From positions 1 to 64,000 of IMG/VR virus record IMGVR_UViG_3300009149_000020: 64,000 nucleotides of DNA; one strand, written 5' to 3'. Shown here one piece after another: positions 1,169 through 53,539 of the stretch. Each line of letters opens with the position of its first letter. Within the stretch, counting starts at the first letter, position 1. The translations under genes and the position numbers were made by a program. The stretch is from a virus. The notes beneath the pieces are model-generated. The model was given only the letters and a program-made list of their open reading frames with translations, did no database searches and was not told the DNA's origin.

Positions 1169-1593
1169 CTGAAGCCGAGAAGAAACATTGTGAAAAAGAA
1201 TTACGCATTGCAATGTTTAGATCGATCAAAGCAGGGTCCTTACCTCGTGTAAAGTTTTACTTAATGTCGGGGGTAAGCGTAAAAAATCCACCAGGTGATG
1301 GGTATACTGCACTAAAGATTGCAATTCGTGAAAATCGTCTTGATATTGTGAAAGTATTGGTAGAAGCAGGTGCTGATATCAACTATAGAAACAAACTAGG
1401 TAATTGCATTTTATTTGATGCAGTCTGTGAACCAGAAATACTAAAATATTTTATTGACAAAGGAGCAGATATATCAGTGAGAAATTGTGCTGGTACGTGT
1501 GCTTTCACTATTGCACGTATGACTGGTTGTACAGAATCTCAAATGTTATTGATGAGCTATGCAAGGCAACAAGGTTATTTTTCAGGAGTGTGA
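1165..1593 (+). CDS. Ankyrin repeat protein, small, TTG start
   Basis: 142 residues and the third ankyrin gene in a row. The repeats are marked by 'KFYLMSGVSV', 'VKVLVEAGADINYRN' and 'LKYFIDKGADISVRN'. As with the gene before it, a TTG codon overlapping the previous TGA serves as the start behind a GGAGGTG site. It is followed by the radical-SAM-like gene after 11 bp. The function beyond protein binding cannot be inferred. Confidence 0.88.
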   Translation: MTEAEKKHCEKELRIAMFRSIKAGSLPRVKFYLMSGVSVKNPPGDGYTALKIAIRENRLDIVKVLVEAGADINYRNKLGNCILFDAVCEPEILKYFIDKGADISVRNCAGTCAFTIARMTGCTESQMLLMSYARQQGYFSGV

Positions 1594-1604
1594 AAGGAGT
1601 AAGA

Positions 1605-2687
1605 ATGGATTGTAAAATATTGTACTTGCCTAATAAGGCTAAGCCCTTTTCTAAACATGTGGAATCAAGTAATTACAATTTTGATTTCTTTTATAAGAGT
1701 GGTCTTTTTCTTAGGTGGGGAAAGACTGAAGACGATGACCCATCATATTCTCCATTCGGGCCTGAGATACTTGATATAGAGATATCAACTATCTGTAATG
1801 GTATTAATGGGAAGCCCTGTACACATTGCTATAAATCAAACACAGGCAAAGGAAAGAATATGTCTTTTGATACATTCAAAACTATCTTTGACAAAATGCC
1901 TGAAACATTGACTCAGGTAGCATTTGGTATTGGAGATATTGATGCAAATCCTGATATGTGGGAAATGTTTAAGTATTGTAGGAGTAATCAGAATACTGTA
2001 GTTGTGCCTAATGTAACTATAAATGGCTGGAATCTAACAGATGAGGCAGCAGATAACTTTTCTTCCTTATGTGGAGCTGTTGCTGTCTCAAGATACCAAC
2101 CTAAAGATGTATGTTATGATGCTGTACAAAAACTAACAGATAAAGGGATGACGCAGGTTAACATACATATGCTACTGTCACAGGAAACATTAGACCAGTG
2201 TTATGAAACAGTATATGATATGAAAATGGACGCTAGGCTACGAAGAGCAAATGCTGTAGTATTTTTGTATCTTAAGCCTAAAGGAATCAGAAATAAGTTT
2301 ACTATGCTACATGGTGCTAGTCATTATGAAAAACTTATTTCGTATTGTTTTAATAACAAGGTTAAGTTTGGGTTTGACTCTTGTTCAGCTCCTACATTTT
2401 TACGAGCAGTAGAACATAGGTCAAATTTTTCTGAACTTGAAATGATGGCAGAGTCCTGTGAAAGTTCTTGTTTCAGCAGCTATATTAATGTGGATGGACG
2501 ATACTTTCATTGTTCTTTTACAGAAGGGGAGCAAGGTTGGAAAGGAATTGACGTAGTCAACTGTAAAGACTTCTTAAAAGATGTATGGTATGGTGATGAG
2601 ACCATAAGATTTAGAGATAGTTTGATTACACAAAATCATGCAATTAGTAACTCATGCAGAGAATGTCCAATATTTGATTTACGGTGA
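1605..2687 (+). CDS. Radical SAM-like enzyme
   Basis: 360 residues from ATG 1605, which follows AAAGGAGT; the frame is open further upstream but lacks a better start. Cys64, Cys72 and Cys75 form a C-x7-C-x2-C cluster (...STIC then PCTHCYKSN), a spaced variant of the radical SAM CX3CX2C 4Fe-4S motif. It is followed by 'KNMSFDTFKTIFDKMP' and 'TQVAFGIGDID', which fit the partial TIM barrel. Seven or so cysteines near residues 285-354 (CESSC, YFHC, NCKDF, SCREC) resemble a SPASM-like auxiliary cluster region. The two downstream genes on either side of 3113-3508 encode SNSSS-start proteins, possible substrates. Radical SAM identity is well supported; the substrate is inference. Confidence 0.8.
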   Translation: MDCKILYLPNKAKPFSKHVESSNYNFDFFYKSGLFLRWGKTEDDDPSYSPFGPEILDIEISTICNGINGKPCTHCYKSNTGKGKNMSFDTFKTIFDKMPETLTQVAFGIGDIDANPDMWEMFKYCRSNQNTVVVPNVTINGWNLTDEAADNFSSLCGAVAVSRYQPKDVCYDAVQKLTDKGMTQVNIHMLLSQETLDQCYETVYDMKMDARLRRANAVVFLYLKPKGIRNKFTMLHGASHYEKLISYCFNNKVKFGFDSCSAPTFLRAVEHRSNFSELEMMAESCESSCFSSYINVDGRYFHCSFTEGEQGWKGIDVVNCKDFLKDVWYGDETIRFRDSLITQNHAISNSCRECPIFDLR

Positions 2688-2708
2688 ACTTTATTTTTAG
2701 GAGAATTT

Positions 2709-3098
2709 ATGAAGATTAGACACGGTTTTGTTAGCAATTCATCTTCGACTGCTTTTATTGTTTGTAGGAATGAGTTAACAAGAGCACAGGAAGATTTATT
2801 GTTAGGATGTACACCTGCATTAGAAGAAGGCTGGAAAATAGGTATTGTAAACGACCACATAATCGGTTATGTTGATATGGATAATTTTGAGATTGAAGAT
2901 GTTTTGTTAGTATTAGAAATACATAGTGCTCGTATTTGTAGCTACCCCGATTTTCTTGATTATGCAGGATTGGAGAAACTTGTTAGATTAGGAAAAGTTT
3001 CTGAGTTTAATGGTCTTTACGGAGTGTGGGACCCAAGCAATAACTTTATTGCAGAAAGGGTGCCTGGCAAGAAATCACGCAAGTCAGCAAAAAGGTGA
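2709..3098 (+). CDS. SNSSS-start protein 1
   Basis: 129 residues. The N-terminus MKIRHGFVSNSSSTAFIV closely matches those of the genes at 3519 and 53024, while the rest of each protein differs. Conservation limited to the first ~18 residues suggests a recognition or processing signal rather than a shared fold. It lies 21 bp downstream of the radical-SAM-like gene with a 'TTTTAGGAGAATTT' ribosome site. The C-terminal end is basic (GKKSRKSAKR). No known catalytic motif is seen. Confidence 0.85.
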   Translation: MKIRHGFVSNSSSTAFIVCRNELTRAQEDLLLGCTPALEEGWKIGIVNDHIIGYVDMDNFEIEDVLLVLEIHSARICSYPDFLDYAGLEKLVRLGKVSEFNGLYGVWDPSNNFIAERVPGKKSRKSAKR

Positions 3099-3112
3099 GC
3101 GTAGGAGGATTT

Positions 3113-3508
3113 ATGGAAAATGATCCGCATATACTTATACAAAGCATTGAAGAAGAAATAACTAATGAAATTCAGCAAGCATCTTTTGGCATATCACTAA
3201 TGCCAGATAACCAACTTAAGGAACTTGCTAAGGATATAGTTGCCGGTAGAGTATTTACAGATAGGCAGGTAAGAAAAAGTGATGTTAGCATGTTATCTAG
3301 TATCTTTATGGTATTAGTATTTATGCAAGGCAATACCTCTTTAGTTTTGTCTGATGCAGGGCTGCTTTATGAATATTTGGATAAGGCTGGCCCTAGATGT
3401 GTCAATGGCTACCCTACATTCATGTCAGTAAGATATGTTCATAAGCATGATATACCTAGACTCTTCGAGACATGTGATAAAGTGCAACAAGCACTAGCTT
3501 CTATTTAA
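3113..3508 (+). CDS. Hypothetical protein between the SNSSS genes
   Basis: 131 residues from ATG 3113, chosen because GGAGGA lies five bases upstream; a GTG at 3095 in the same frame would place this site inside the gene. It is helical, with an acidic start (MENDPHILIQSIEEEI) and 'MLSSIFMVLVFMQGN', a hydrophobic stretch too short and mixed to call a membrane segment. No recognisable domain. It sits between two SNSSS-start genes and may belong to the same unit. Confidence 0.8.
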   Translation: MENDPHILIQSIEEEITNEIQQASFGISLMPDNQLKELAKDIVAGRVFTDRQVRKSDVSMLSSIFMVLVFMQGNTSLVLSDAGLLYEYLDKAGPRCVNGYPTFMSVRYVHKHDIPRLFETCDKVQQALASI

Positions 3509-3518
3509 GGAGGAACTA

Positions 3519-4067
3519 ATGAAAGTTAGACGAGGCTTTGTTAGCAATTCCAGTTCAAGCAGTTTTATAATGGCCTTCTCTGAGAAGATACCTGAAACTG
3601 TTGAGGAATTACATTCAATATTATTTTGGGACAATGTAACAGGAGTTATTACTTCTACCTATTCAGAGTCAGTTGTTAGCACACACTTGCTTGCTACACG
3701 TATTTTTGAGAAAATTAAGAAAGAAGGTACATCTAACAAAGCAGAGATTATTGAAAAACTTGCATGGTCTGATCAAACTCGCGCACTACAAGCGGAGTAC
3801 TTTGCTTTACATGAAAATTATAAAGATGATACAAAGGCTTATAAACAAGCACAGTCTTTGTTAGATCAGCAAATGACTGAAGCAGCTGAAAGAATTTATA
3901 AGTATGTTTTATGTAAAGGCAGTGGGTATGATCACGTTCCTCCCTCAAACGTTGTAATGGTTGAATTCGAAGACAATGGTCTTTCCATAGATGCTATTAT
4001 TGAGCATAGCGCTATTATTAACGATGATGGTTATAGACTTACTGTTGTTACGGTTAATAATCATTAA
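3519..4067 (+). CDS. SNSSS-start protein 2
   Basis: 182 residues. It opens with MKVRRGFVSNSSSSSFIMAF, the most Ser-rich version of the shared N-terminal motif. The remainder is a helical, mildly acidic domain with no known motif. It shares no obvious similarity with SNSSS protein 1 beyond the start. It is preceded by AAGGAGGAACTA. It may be a target of the radical-SAM-like enzyme encoded 0.8 kb upstream; this is inference from position only. Confidence 0.85.
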   Translation: MKVRRGFVSNSSSSSFIMAFSEKIPETVEELHSILFWDNVTGVITSTYSESVVSTHLLATRIFEKIKKEGTSNKAEIIEKLAWSDQTRALQAEYFALHENYKDDTKAYKQAQSLLDQQMTEAAERIYKYVLCKGSGYDHVPPSNVVMVEFEDNGLSIDAIIEHSAIINDDGYRLTVVTVNNH

Positions 4068-4076
4068 GGAGTATTT

Positions 4077-4895
4077 ATGTCTAAATTGGTGAAATTTAAA
4101 ACAGGTGTAACATCCTACGAAATAAACAAAAAGTCTGATCCAGCCTTGTCCATTCTTCATCATATTAGTACAGGTTGGAAGAATTATACTGGCGATAGTA
4201 CTACTTCTACGCTTGTTACAAAGTTTTATATAGCAATGGCTCCTACTCCTGATATAACTTTGTTAGACGAGCAAGCAGATCGCTACTTGTACTATCGTAG
4301 AGGTAAATGGTCTGATCCAGCGGCTGCACACGACCCAGAATCATTAATCAGACAGACCTACCATACGTTATTAGGAGTGGCTACGCAAAATGTTAAACTG
4401 GATGCTGACCAAACTATTAGATATTTATATTATGAAAAGACACATGATCCAGATGCCAAAAAAGATATTGACCAAACTATAAGGTATAGATACTATGAGC
4501 TTTATCCTACCGATCCTGCTGCTAAAGACGATAGTCTTATGCATGCAAGACTCAACTACTATAGAAGTACACTATGGAAAGATAGTGACTGGTGTAAGGA
4601 TAAGACATTGCAAGTAGTTATTTCTGGATTGTATGAATCTTTAGAATTGCAGGTAGACGAAGAGGTGCTCAATGCTTTATTTACAACAGTAGGAGGAATG
4701 GACTTATACAACTTTAGTTATCACACCTTTTTCGTGTTTAAGGATGCTATCATTATCGAAAGACTTGCACAGTTAGTAAAAGAAGTAACTCCCGGGTTAT
4801 TCGGAAGGATGCTTTTAAATATTAAAGATTCTAACAAGAGACAAAAGTTTATGGAGTTTATGAAAAATCTTGGAGTAGTGGAGGAGCCGTGTTAA
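4077..4895 (+). CDS. YY/W repeat family protein
   Basis: 272 residues. From about residue 65 to 170 there are tandem units of ~20-25 residues built on 'IRYLYYE....DPDAKKDID', with a Tyr-Tyr pair, an acidic 'DxDAxxD' turn and a Trp in some copies. The last unit passes into the family core 'LWKDSDWCKD..LQVVISGLY'. The C-terminal segment 'PGLFGRMLLNIKDSNKRQKFMEFM' matches the tail seen in other members and in several ankyrin proteins here. It has no signal peptide. Function is unknown; it is probably an all-helical protein-binding solenoid. It overlaps the next gene by 7 bp. Confidence 0.88.
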   Translation: MSKLVKFKTGVTSYEINKKSDPALSILHHISTGWKNYTGDSTTSTLVTKFYIAMAPTPDITLLDEQADRYLYYRRGKWSDPAAAHDPESLIRQTYHTLLGVATQNVKLDADQTIRYLYYEKTHDPDAKKDIDQTIRYRYYELYPTDPAAKDDSLMHARLNYYRSTLWKDSDWCKDKTLQVVISGLYESLELQVDEEVLNALFTTVGGMDLYNFSYHTFFVFKDAIIIERLAQLVKEVTPGLFGRMLLNIKDSNKRQKFMEFMKNLGVVEEPC

Positions 4896-25898: not shown

Positions 25899-26438
25899 AT
25901 GAACACACTTGATAATCAATTAATTGATGCTGCCAAAGCAGGAAATGTAAAGCTCACTAAATTCCTTTTAATGTCAGGTGCGGCGCCTAATGCCTGCGAT
26001 CTTAATGGAGTAACGGCACTAATGCGTACTTGTCATAACCCTATAAGTCTTTTACAGAACAGTGCGATAGAAATAGCTGAATTACTTCTTGAAGCAGGTG
26101 CGAATCCAAATATCAACGATACCTTAGGAGGTACCCCTCTTGCTTATTCTATAAGGAATCGATATGACACTAGTCAAGTTTTGATATCTTTGCTCATCGA
26201 AGCGGGCGCAGACGTTAATCAGGCACAGGAAGGAGGATACCCTGCTTTGCTTCTTTTAGGTTATCATCCTAACTACTCTAAAGCGGAGATGTTAGTGAAT
26301 GCAGGTGCTGATGTAAACGCTGTAGTTAATGGCATACGCTTATTACAAAGATTACTGTCATTACATTTTCTTTATGGGAGTTCTACAATAGATCGTATTA
26401 TACAATTACTTGTAGCTAATGGTGCTACGCTAACTTAA
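25899..26438 (+). CDS. Ankyrin repeat protein
   Basis: 179 residues with four canonical ankyrin units: 'TKFLLMSGAAPNACDLNGVTALM', 'AELLLEAGANPNINDTLGGTPLA' region, 'ISLLIEAGADVNQAQEGGYPALL' region and 'AEMLVNAGADVNAVVNG'. It is one of the most regular ankyrin proteins here. It ends 'LLVANGATLT'. No extra domain. The target is unknown. Confidence 0.92.
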   Translation: MNTLDNQLIDAAKAGNVKLTKFLLMSGAAPNACDLNGVTALMRTCHNPISLLQNSAIEIAELLLEAGANPNINDTLGGTPLAYSIRNRYDTSQVLISLLIEAGADVNQAQEGGYPALLLLGYHPNYSKAEMLVNAGADVNAVVNGIRLLQRLLSLHFLYGSSTIDRIIQLLVANGATLT

Positions 26439-39480: not shown

Positions 39481-40050
39481 ATGGAAGAAAAGGGGGCATG
39501 GATGAAGGAGCTAAACGAAAGGTTAATGACTGCTATTTATGAAGGATCGTCTAAAGCTGTTAAATTTCTTTTAATGTCAGGAGCTGATCCAAATTGTATA
39601 CTATGGACTGGTTTTGTTACAGATAAATTTGTAGTAACATCTGAAAAAGATGGAAAGGCTACTAATTTGAATTTGACTAAAACGTCTGCTTTAATTCTAG
39701 CGTGCGAGACTCCTAGTATGTATAATGCTAACCAGGATGCTAATTTAAAAATAATAAGATTACTACTTGATGCAGGCGCTGACGTGAACGCTGCGATTAT
39801 GTATACTGCTTGGGAGGCTCTGCGTAAGGATACACCGTTATTTGCAGCTATTGATATGGAAGACGTTCCTGCAATAAAGTTATTATTAACTTATAACGCT
39901 GATCCTTCTTTAAAAGATGCTGACGAACGCGATGCACTTTCTTGTGCCGTTTATTCATGTTCGTCGAACGACGAGCGCAGGTGTGAAATAATTAGAGTTA
40001 TTGTAAAGGCAGAACTTGCTTGGAATGCAGGCAAGGAGAAGGAGAACTAA
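39481..40050 (+). CDS. Ankyrin repeat protein
   Basis: 189 residues with three ankyrin units: 'KAVKFLLMSGADPNCILW', 'IRLLLDAGADVNAAIMY' and 'IKLLLTYNADPSLKDADERDAL'. The start 'KELNERLMTAIYEGSSKAVKFLLMSGADPN' region closely matches the start of the gene at 453. TAA overlaps the next ATG. Confidence 0.9.
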   Translation: MEEKGAWMKELNERLMTAIYEGSSKAVKFLLMSGADPNCILWTGFVTDKFVVTSEKDGKATNLNLTKTSALILACETPSMYNANQDANLKIIRLLLDAGADVNAAIMYTAWEALRKDTPLFAAIDMEDVPAIKLLLTYNADPSLKDADERDALSCAVYSCSSNDERRCEIIRVIVKAELAWNAGKEKEN

Positions 40051-40397
40051 TGACTGAACATGCAGTTAAATGGCTAAGACCTGCCGACTTGGCACCTCTC
40101 GATTTTGAATGTTTAAACGCTGTTTTCAAAAAAGATATTAAGAAAGTTAAGTTCTGCATTATGGCGGGAGCTAACGTTAACGTTGCTGTGTATGGTTGCA
40201 TATCAGGGTTATTCAGAGCTGTTATCTGCGGAAACTTTGAGATGGCAAAGCTTTTAGTTGAGGCAGGAGCTGATGTTAACTTCAACCCTACAGGAAAGGA
40301 ATCTATACTGGATGCTTTAAAGAGTCGCTCTTTTAGAACAAGAGGGTTGAAAGTTAAACTCAAACATCTTTTAGTGAAAGGAGGTGCTCATGAATGA
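40050..40397 (+). CDS. Ankyrin repeat protein, small
   Basis: 115 residues from ATG 40050 (AAGGAGAACTA upstream; an earlier in-frame ATG at 40020 would include the site). Two ankyrin units: 'KKVKFCIMAGANVNVAVYG' and 'AKLLVEAGADVNFNPTGKE'. It resembles the second ankyrin gene of the window (866) in size and first helix. Confidence 0.88.
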   Translation: MTEHAVKWLRPADLAPLDFECLNAVFKKDIKKVKFCIMAGANVNVAVYGCISGLFRAVICGNFEMAKLLVEAGADVNFNPTGKESILDALKSRSFRTRGLKVKLKHLLVKGGAHE

Positions 40398-52183: not shown

Positions 52184-53049
52184 GTAAAAAAGAAAAGCAA
52201 CCACAAGTAAAAGAATTAACAAAGGAACAGCAAGCATTGTTCTTTGATTTGCCTGCAAGTACAAAAAGTGCGTTTCTTAGAAGGATGATTTATAGTGCAC
52301 TTGGTAGAAAGGATATCATAGCACTTAAAGAACTTGCATCGTTAGCTGATACATTAGGGTCTAATGTTTTTACACACGCTTCCACTTTAAAAGAAATAGG
52401 ACTCAGAGCCTCTTATGAAACTATACGTTTTTTAATGGAGCATCCTTTTATACAAAAAAATATTAAGAAGGGTAACGCTTTTCCTTTATTAAAAGGAGTG
52501 TGTATTTCAAAGGATACTGAATCACTACATTATTTTGTTGATCACCCTGAACATCCTGTGACACAATTAATTAAGGAAGCAGGTGTAGGTAATCGTATGT
52601 TTGCAAGCTATAATGACGAGCACAGTCCTATAATTGTGGCAGCTAGAGAAAAAGATCTGCATCTTATCAAAAAAATTATTGCAATGTATCCTCCAAATTC
52701 TAGATTCTCTCTTGAAGAAAAAAGTACAATTGTTTTAGACTACTTACGTAGTGCACTCAGTCCTTTGTCAACTGGTCTCACTTCTAAAAAAAAGCAGCAA
52801 GTGAAATCGGAGTGTCTTCGTATTGTTGACGAGATACTTTCTACAATGCATATAGAATTTGAAGAAATTGTAGCCCCTAAATATCATCCACTTACACACT
52901 GGATGCTTCCTTTTGTAGGCGAATTTATTTTTAAAGAAAAGCATTTAGGTATGTTAGCAATGCGTAAAGATTGGCAAGGTGAGGTTGCTAGAGAGCTATT
53001 AGCTAAAAAAGAGGAGAAGACTAATGAAAATCAGAACAGGCTTTATTAG
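52180..53049 (+). CDS. Ankyrin-like helical repeat protein
   Basis: 289 residues. Degenerate helix pairs ('LKEIGLRASYETIRFLMEHPFI', 'SPIIVAAREKDLHLIKKIIAMY') fit ankyrin spacing but lack the GADvN turn. The end 'HLGMLAMRKDWQGEVARELLAKKEE' resembles the shared C-terminal segment. Overlaps SNSSS protein 3 by 26 bp. Confidence 0.8.
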   Translation: MSKKEKQPQVKELTKEQQALFFDLPASTKSAFLRRMIYSALGRKDIIALKELASLADTLGSNVFTHASTLKEIGLRASYETIRFLMEHPFIQKNIKKGNAFPLLKGVCISKDTESLHYFVDHPEHPVTQLIKEAGVGNRMFASYNDEHSPIIVAAREKDLHLIKKIIAMYPPNSRFSLEEKSTIVLDYLRSALSPLSTGLTSKKKQQVKSECLRIVDEILSTMHIEFEEIVAPKYHPLTHWMLPFVGEFIFKEKHLGMLAMRKDWQGEVARELLAKKEEKTNENQNRLY

Positions 53050-53539
53050 TAACAGTTCGAGCAGTTCTTTCATTGTAGGAATAGGTATGCATCTATTAGA
53101 TGACATAAAAGATATGGAAAAATTAAAGTACATGCTTTGTGTAGAAGACTGGACAGAAGTTAATCCTTATAACGAGCCTGGAGAAGGTTTACCTATAGAC
53201 GAAGCTATTTCTATTTTACAAAATGACTTAGCGGAGGCTAAAGACGCAACTGAAGAAGAAATAATTGAATTATTATCGCGCAGTTACACATTGCAGTTGT
53301 ATGTTGCTGACAGTAATAACCTAGGTTTAGAGGATACACGAGAACAGCATGCTGCGCGCATTGCTAAAATACGCAAGGATTCTTTAGAGCTTGCTAAAAA
53401 CTATTGGAATAACTACAAGAAAGATAACACAAAGTATTTTATTCTTGACTATGCTGACGACGAAGATGCATGTATGGAACACGGCGGGTTACTTGAGCAA
53501 GGTGCAGGTGTTAGCTGTATTAGAATTTCGAATCATTAA
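53024..53539 (+). CDS. SNSSS-start protein 3
   Basis: 171 residues, ATG 53024 (AAGAGGAGAAGACTA upstream). Opens MKIRTGFISNSSSSSFIVGI, nearly identical to the two at 2.7 and 3.5 kb, although 50 kb away and surrounded by ankyrin-type genes. The remainder is acidic and helical ('LARIAKIRKDSLELAKN'-like). It ends '..GVSCIRISNH', and SNSSS protein 2 ends '..TVVTVNNH', so a short beta-strand plus N-H end may also be shared. No radical SAM gene lies near this copy in the window. Confidence 0.88.
   Translation: MKIRTGFISNSSSSSFIVGIGMHLLDDIKDMEKLKYMLCVEDWTEVNPYNEPGEGLPIDEAISILQNDLAEAKDATEEEIIELLSRSYTLQLYVADSNNLGLEDTREQHAARIAKIRKDSLELAKNYWNNYKKDNTKYFILDYADDEDACMEHGGLLEQGAGVSCIRISNH

Follow-up and report, generated by a model that had tools for sequence, protein, structure and literature searches.

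A radical SAM enzyme beside proteins with a common N-terminus

The window, a 64,000-nucleotide stretch of viral DNA (positions 1 to 64,000 of IMG/VR record IMGVR_UViG_3300009149_000020, which holds 82,826 bases), encodes a radical S-adenosylmethionine (rSAM) enzyme and three proteins that begin with the same short peptide, here called the tag; as argued below, the enzyme is probably the maturase of that tag. The enzyme, a member of phrog_7293 with 360 residues and a reduced SPASM-like C-terminus, is encoded at 1605–2687 on the plus strand, as are the three tagged proteins. Tagged protein 1 (129 residues, 2709–3098) and tagged protein 2 (182 residues, 3519–4067, with a phrog_7397-like body) follow it, and tagged protein 3 (171 residues) lies at 53024–53539. 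Their N-termini, MKIRHGFVSNSSSTAF, MKVRRGFVSNSSSSSF and MKIRTGFISNSSSSSF respectively, contain the tags MKIRHGFVSNSSSTAFIV (2709–2762), MKVRRGFVSNSSSSSFIM (3519–3572) and MKIRTGFISNSSSSSFIV (53024–53077). Proteins 1 and 2 have only MK[IV]RxGFVSNSSSSxF in common, and BLASTP aligns them convincingly over residues 1–22 alone (14/22 identical), which bears out a first-pass annotation of this DNA that had described two neighbours alike only in their first ~18 residues and a third copy at 53024. The degenerate pattern GF[VI]SNSSS matches three times in the window and not once in 100 dinucleotide shuffles; these shuffles and the control contigs described below rule out a chance motif.

The enzyme belongs to the radical SAM superfamily, with a three-cysteine [4Fe-4S] motif and a partial TIM barrel. 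The motif, C64-x7-C72-x2-C75 (1794–1829), occupies columns that are near-invariant among homologues, and four further cysteines in the C-terminal stretch at 2382–2666 (C260, C285, C303 and C354) are invariant across 76 homologues and are probable ligands of one auxiliary cluster. Both the C-x7-C-x2-C spacing and the cysteine-rich C-terminus had been recognized in the first-pass annotation. The window enzyme scores just below the curated Pfam cut-off for Radical_SAM (27.3 bits; cut-off 29.5) and reaches 17.1 bits against SPASM, a C-terminal domain with seven cysteines that binds two auxiliary clusters (cut-off 21.5); bacterial homologues pass both cut-offs, with 57.3 bits for Radical_SAM. The phrog_7293 profile matches over the full length (residues 17–357, E=1e-94), and PHROG lists the function of both phrog_7293 and phrog_7397 as unknown. 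The AlphaFold2 model (mean predicted local distance difference test score, pLDDT, of 95) predicts an rSAM/SPASM fold that carries a beta extension at its N-terminus, and the nearest solved structures are SuiB (E=2e-10), TigE, anSMEcpe and CteB, at 9–16% sequence identity. The substrates of these four enzymes are peptides or proteins, and the modelled fold is thus nearest to peptide-modifying enzymes. No NCBIfam rSAM equivalog model passes its cut-off on the enzyme, and assignment to a known equivalog was discarded on that ground. Pfam and NCBIfam scans returned no family for a RiPP (ribosomally synthesized and post-translationally modified peptide) recognition element, and no search aimed at such elements was made.

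The first cysteine motif varies across the family: many viral members have Cx6-8CxxC or longer loops, and the canonical CxxxCxxC is among the bacterial forms. Bacterial members have extra C-terminal cysteines, and viral members keep the four invariant ones. Two viral records (G028:C1:33936-35150 and G031:C1:64484-65689) show an rSAM match that splits at the same profile position (~268–273), with ~100 bases and a stop between the halves, possibly an insertion, recoding or a small intervening element. Several other viral matches (G048, G034, G024, G007 and others) contain an in-frame TAA, TAG or TGA; some of these may be natural stops within the match, and some could mean an altered code.

Linkage of tag and enzyme in viruses

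The first-pass annotation had proposed counting rSAM genes near the motif, and enrichment is found in both directions. Starting from the tag, a phrog_7293 rSAM is present on 38/50 tag-bearing viral contigs with a length of 53 kb or more and on 0/50 control contigs picked by an unrelated P-loop pattern (p=4e-17). Starting from the enzyme, tagged genes lie within 10 kb at 63/69 non-redundant loci and at 0/117 control loci (p=4e-43), amounting to 273 tagged open reading frames (ORFs) in 1.30 Mb around the enzyme and none in 1.09 Mb of controls. These p-values are indicative, because the contigs are not phylogenetically independent; the controls resemble the test contigs in size only approximately, and records in IMG/VR can be incomplete. 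Tag and enzyme share a strand in 392/393 pairs, at a median gap of 1.2 kb. Among the 2,214 ORFs of the 69 enzyme loci, tagged proteins alone recur in most, the next family being found in 11, and no protease or transporter/exporter family recurs, on which ground an RiPP export cluster was rejected. The pairing extends to reference phages: the T4-like phages RB16, RB43 and KP15 have both components, 173 records contain the enzyme, and two of the tagged proteins appear in 175 and 174, all within the same Straboviridae host groups. Of these T4-like phages, phrog_7293 includes the enzyme and phrog_7397 one of the tagged proteins. RB16 (NC_014467) encodes its rSAM at about 90.5–91.5 kb, and its tagged proteins include RB16p106 and RB16p111.

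Hitchhiking or a sampling artefact might account for such co-occurrence, given related contigs within the sample and the loose size-matching; the two-way tests with control sets in practice refute it, and the pair recurs in deeply separated rSAM clades and in bacteria, leaving this explanation a negligible probability.

Conservation of the tag and diversity of the bodies

A pattern scan finds the tag in at least 119 IMG/VR stretches, which together yielded 284 tagged ORFs, frequently arranged in tandem arrays of up to nine members. As such a scan biases the fixed positions, conservation was re-measured at loci found via the enzyme alone, where tagged ORFs were selected by a profile score above 15 bits, a value that no control locus reaches. 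At these loci R4, N10, S11 and S12 are ~100% conserved in viral tags, followed by V8 (98%), S9 and F16 (96% each), F7 (95%) and G6 (94%). At residue 19 the information content falls from 2.3 bits to 0.4, so that conservation stops after residue 18. The motif starts exactly at Met1 in 245/249 matches, and the codons for S11 and S12 differ in 59% of within-genome comparisons; an element that begins at Met1 and whose serine codons switch freely indicates selection on the peptide. A DNA-level element is excluded by the same codon variation between copies in one genome, together with the lack of any Rfam match in window positions 1400–4300. Alphaproteobacterial tags keep FVSNSSS with K4 and D6, and V-[ST]-N-S-S-S, a narrower core, is retained in alphaproteobacterial and clostridial examples, MKLKMDFVSNSSSTSF and MKVRLDYVTNSSSVSY among them. 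A glycyl-radical motif, suggested by R-x-G-F, was dropped since position 6 varies, with D in place of G in Agrobacterium and some Clostridia. Co-variation of the enzyme's cysteine spacing with tag residue 9 amounts to a tendency only, many loci being untypable by the simple pattern.

The bodies behind the tag are diverse. BLASTP sorts them into 26 multi-member families and 81 singletons, and HHalign comparison of the larger families finds them unrelated except for a possible pairing of families 2 and 14; at least 14 families have no relation by profile comparison, and homologous bodies were rejected as an explanation with that one possible exception. Several body families are common to phages and cellular genomes, including that of window protein 1, which is found in other phages and at cellular loci; the body of window protein 3 is a singleton in this sample. 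The phrog_7397 profile matches the window proteins only in its first 19–35 positions, and protein 2 groups with full phrog_7397-like members by BLASTP of the body. The tagged proteins are mostly 80–300 residues long, and one was modelled as folded (pLDDT 90). For one bacterial tagged protein, AlphaFold2 predicts residues 1–10 at low confidence and residues 13–20 as a strand; a bacterial tagged body gave no fold match in the PDB.

These patterns bear on two alternatives to modification of the tag itself. The tag could be a recognition leader only, at which the enzyme docks while the chemistry falls in the bodies, or which is later removed. Systems of rSAM enzymes and RiPPs are as a rule leader-guided, and a shared tag with variable bodies is what such a system would present; the larger body families, however, are unrelated and have no visible common acceptor, the invariant residues make up a polar N-S-S core and not a hydrophobic helix of the docking type, and no protease recurs near the genes, so that we regard a pure leader as improbable, albeit the strongest of the competing explanations. 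Alternatively, the tagged proteins could be adaptors, regulators or inhibitors that bind the enzyme through the tag and stay chemically unchanged. Linkage alone fits a partner as well as a substrate, and the predicted flexibility of the N-terminus suits binding, but the many different-bodied tagged proteins per single enzyme suit substrates better, and we give the partner explanation very little weight.

Bacterial operons with STAND ATPases

Tag and enzyme also occur together in cellular genomes. Among 84,980 species genomes scanned, the tag was found at 50 sites; 45/49 tag-bearing cellular genomes have an rSAM homologue, and at 38/50 cellular tag loci the fetched stretch includes it, usually next to the tagged gene. 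The enzyme is present in 6/391 genomes of the class to which Acetatifactor muris belongs, a patchy distribution like that of defence genes, and in a class-level search by the enzyme without the motif, 6/7 hits adjoin a tag (one of them, L462, being the search centre). Plasmid rSAM hits of three genera, likewise found without the motif, adjoin MKLKMDFVSNSSSTSF or MKIKMDFVSNSSSTSF. The rSAM tree shows a fully supported split between a chromosomal clade (20 rows, 14 linked to STAND genes) and a viral clade; 10 rows of the latter come from cellular assemblies and may be viral contigs that were grouped with cells in binning. Tags, some with a viral-type rSAM, also occur on contigs assigned to Asgard archaea (L227, L207, L224, L247 and L249), which may be archaeal viruses or misbinned phage contigs.

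This cellular distribution weighs on a further alternative, in which the tag is a localization or packaging signal and the enzyme a mere companion in the regulon. Unrelated phage proteins are known to bear N-terminal signals, as do the internal proteins of T4 with their capsid-targeting N-termini; tags without the enzyme on 12/50 viral contigs fit such a role. Bacterial chromosomes and plasmids, with no capsid to be targeted, encode the same tag beside the same enzyme family, which speaks against it, as does the fact that no further gene family recurs with the tag, and packaging is unlikely, more so than a pure leader.

At 20/50 cellular tag loci a homologue of NACHT/STAND (signal transduction ATPases with numerous domains) NTPases is encoded within 8 kb, and of the homologues compared with PADLOC almost all match its Avs2 models; the viral enzyme loci contain no STAND NTPase homologue. 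The bacterial operons run in the order STAND, ~140-residue protein, tagged protein and rSAM, with gene ends that overlap or abut, and the ~140-residue protein, a paralogue of the tagged one (HHalign 84.7%, E=7e-6), lacks the tag; Lachnobacterium bovis has such an operon. The N-termini of the STAND proteins vary between trypsin with an upstream metallo-β-lactamase (MBL) gene, SMEK and hydrophobic segments read from sequence. Plasmids of Agrobacterium, Rhizobium and Rhodobacter, recovered by enzyme-only search, encode SMEK-STAND, a protein of ~121 residues, a tagged protein and rSAM. Across the operon set (L449 5993–12694, L453, L454, L456 and L450, with plasmid loci L459–L461), the STAND proteins differ in N-terminal effector (trypsin with an MBL gene, or SMEK) or the operons have effector-type neighbours (SIR2 and HerA). 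This STAND context predicts a role in immunity: the four-gene operons are a candidate defence system, and the marked bacterial protein probably belongs to a STAND-ATPase immune complex.

A proposed tag-directed radical modification

The data show linkage in both directions, strict placement at the N-terminus, conservation of the peptide up to residue 18, unrelated bodies and a predicted enzyme class, and lead us to propose, with a probability of roughly 70%, that the rSAM is the dedicated maturase of proteins tagged with MK[IV]RxGF[VI][ST]NSSSSSF and alters the N10-S11-S12 core of the tag. The tagged proteins are strongly inferred to be its substrates. The site of the change, the residue hit and the role of the mark are inferred as follows. 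The enzyme would read the tag at the extreme N-terminus, its 5'-deoxyadenosyl radical would change a residue in the invariant core, and one enzyme would thereby mark several proteins with unrelated bodies, whose marked N-terminus may act as a docking or recognition handle. The tagged arrays of phages may, speculatively, be host- or defence-directed proteins. A single radical-installed mark serving both sides of the phage–host conflict, on arrays of small effectors in large phages and, in NLR-like bacterial STAND operons, on a sensor, bait or trigger linked to the phage system, is a tentative idea that we hold considerably less firmly than the maturase proposal.

Several observations weigh against the proposed modification. 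Among the 12 tag-bearing viral contigs without the enzyme, 7 lack any rSAM, and the 10 kb around 6/69 enzyme loci contain no tag. The enzyme and tagged genes of T4-like phages lie ~20 kb apart. The untagged paralogue in bacterial operons indicates that the body can do without the tag, the reduced SPASM region of the viral enzymes means that their chemistry is not transferable from SuiB or anSME, and the support for an N-terminal chemical change is genetic, not biochemical. The first-pass annotation had itself raised the distant third copy and the existence of enzyme-less tags as counter-arguments; these are largely answered, as several copies of the tag are usual and may be scattered across a genome, and what persists is the 12 enzyme-less contigs, all possibly fragments, for which fragmentation or host enzymes may account.

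If the proposal holds, radical chemistry would be directed by a tag to unrelated proteins in laboratory-tractable T4-like phages and in many large environmental phages, and scores of 'hypothetical' genes would share one explanation. Peptide chemistry would gain a new handle at the N-terminus, and NLR-like immunity in bacteria would be connected with a maturation system of phages.

Relation to known systems

The SPASM maturases SuiB (streptide), CteB (a sactisynthase), TigE and anSMEcpe likewise combine an rSAM core with a cysteine-rich C-terminus, which in them binds auxiliary clusters, and their genes are likewise coupled to a substrate gene; coupled rSAM and substrate genes are thus of an already known kind. 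The system described here differs in its presumed substrates, which are many proteins, mostly 80–300 residues long, with a common N-terminal tag, and in its viral enzymes, whose SPASM region is reduced and whose first cysteine motif is spaced Cx6-8CxxC or longer. It is not a classical RiPP system, with short precursor, removable leader and protease or exporter, because the bodies are mostly 80–300 residues long and neither protease nor exporter recurs. The genomic data support the suggestion of the first-pass annotation that the SNSSS segment could be a modification or tagging site; the departure from classical RiPPs and the occurrence at bacterial and plasmid loci go beyond it.

Kaur et al. 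2020 predict an rSAM that modifies a peptide effector within a prokaryotic conflict system (PMC7159879). The partners there are vWA, MoxR, FtsH and a metallopeptidase, whereas here they are STAND NTPases with no recurrent peptidase; the two systems are set apart here by their partner genes. The MBL–trypsin pair of Avs-type nuclease–protease modules is described in PMC12799240, and a search of its full text for radical SAM came back empty. Some bacterial operons in our set have an MBL gene like Avs1a/LmuA of AVAST systems (E=2e-36 and 4e-56, LmuA matching better), and the STAND proteins have Avs2-like NTPase regions; Avs1b is matched in its trypsin part only. Most of these STAND proteins are short (~680–990 residues), unlike those of AVAST, and the operons add the untagged paralogue, the tagged protein and the rSAM. 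By sequence the operons do not correspond to AVAST type I (Avs1a MBL, Avs1b trypsin-STAND and Avs1c), whose components are absent from the viral loci, and PADLOC gave no hit for the tagged or untagged small proteins.

No curated family fits a common N-terminal tag served by one rSAM, and the descriptions of phrog_7293 and phrog_7397 include neither the pairing nor the tag. Within the literature searched, outside of which most subscription journals fall, the motif appears only in an unrelated hemp-peptide paper and the tag–enzyme pair is undescribed. What appears new is a single rSAM that serves unrelated proteins through the tag at their N-termini, both in phages and in STAND operons; an earlier description elsewhere is possible.

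Other features of the loci

In the window, an untagged ORF of 137 residues (3095–3508, plus strand) sits between tagged proteins 1 and 2, and the family libraries (Pfam, PHROG and NCBIfam) gave weak matches to it at most. The phrog_7397-like tagged family has a conserved C-terminal YSDNxG...LEHG...H motif in which the last residue is His. Very large tagged proteins of 742 and 717 residues occur in Clostridium caldaquaticum and Fusibacter (L208 and L209, also L451 and L452); they adjoin an rSAM and a 330-residue protein, and no STAND gene was detected there. Among the viral loci, a vWA-like protein adjoins the tagged RB16p111 (RB16, NC_014467, 67920–71000) and an AAA ATPase of MoxR-like appearance is found in 4/69 rSAM loci (e.g. 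L444, 11590–12843), neighbours that recall vWA-MoxR conflict systems. Small ankyrin-repeat-like ORFs lie in the window at 453–1593, 25899–26438 and 39481–40397 (Pfam was run on 1165–1593), some of them in tandem immediately upstream of the rSAM gene.
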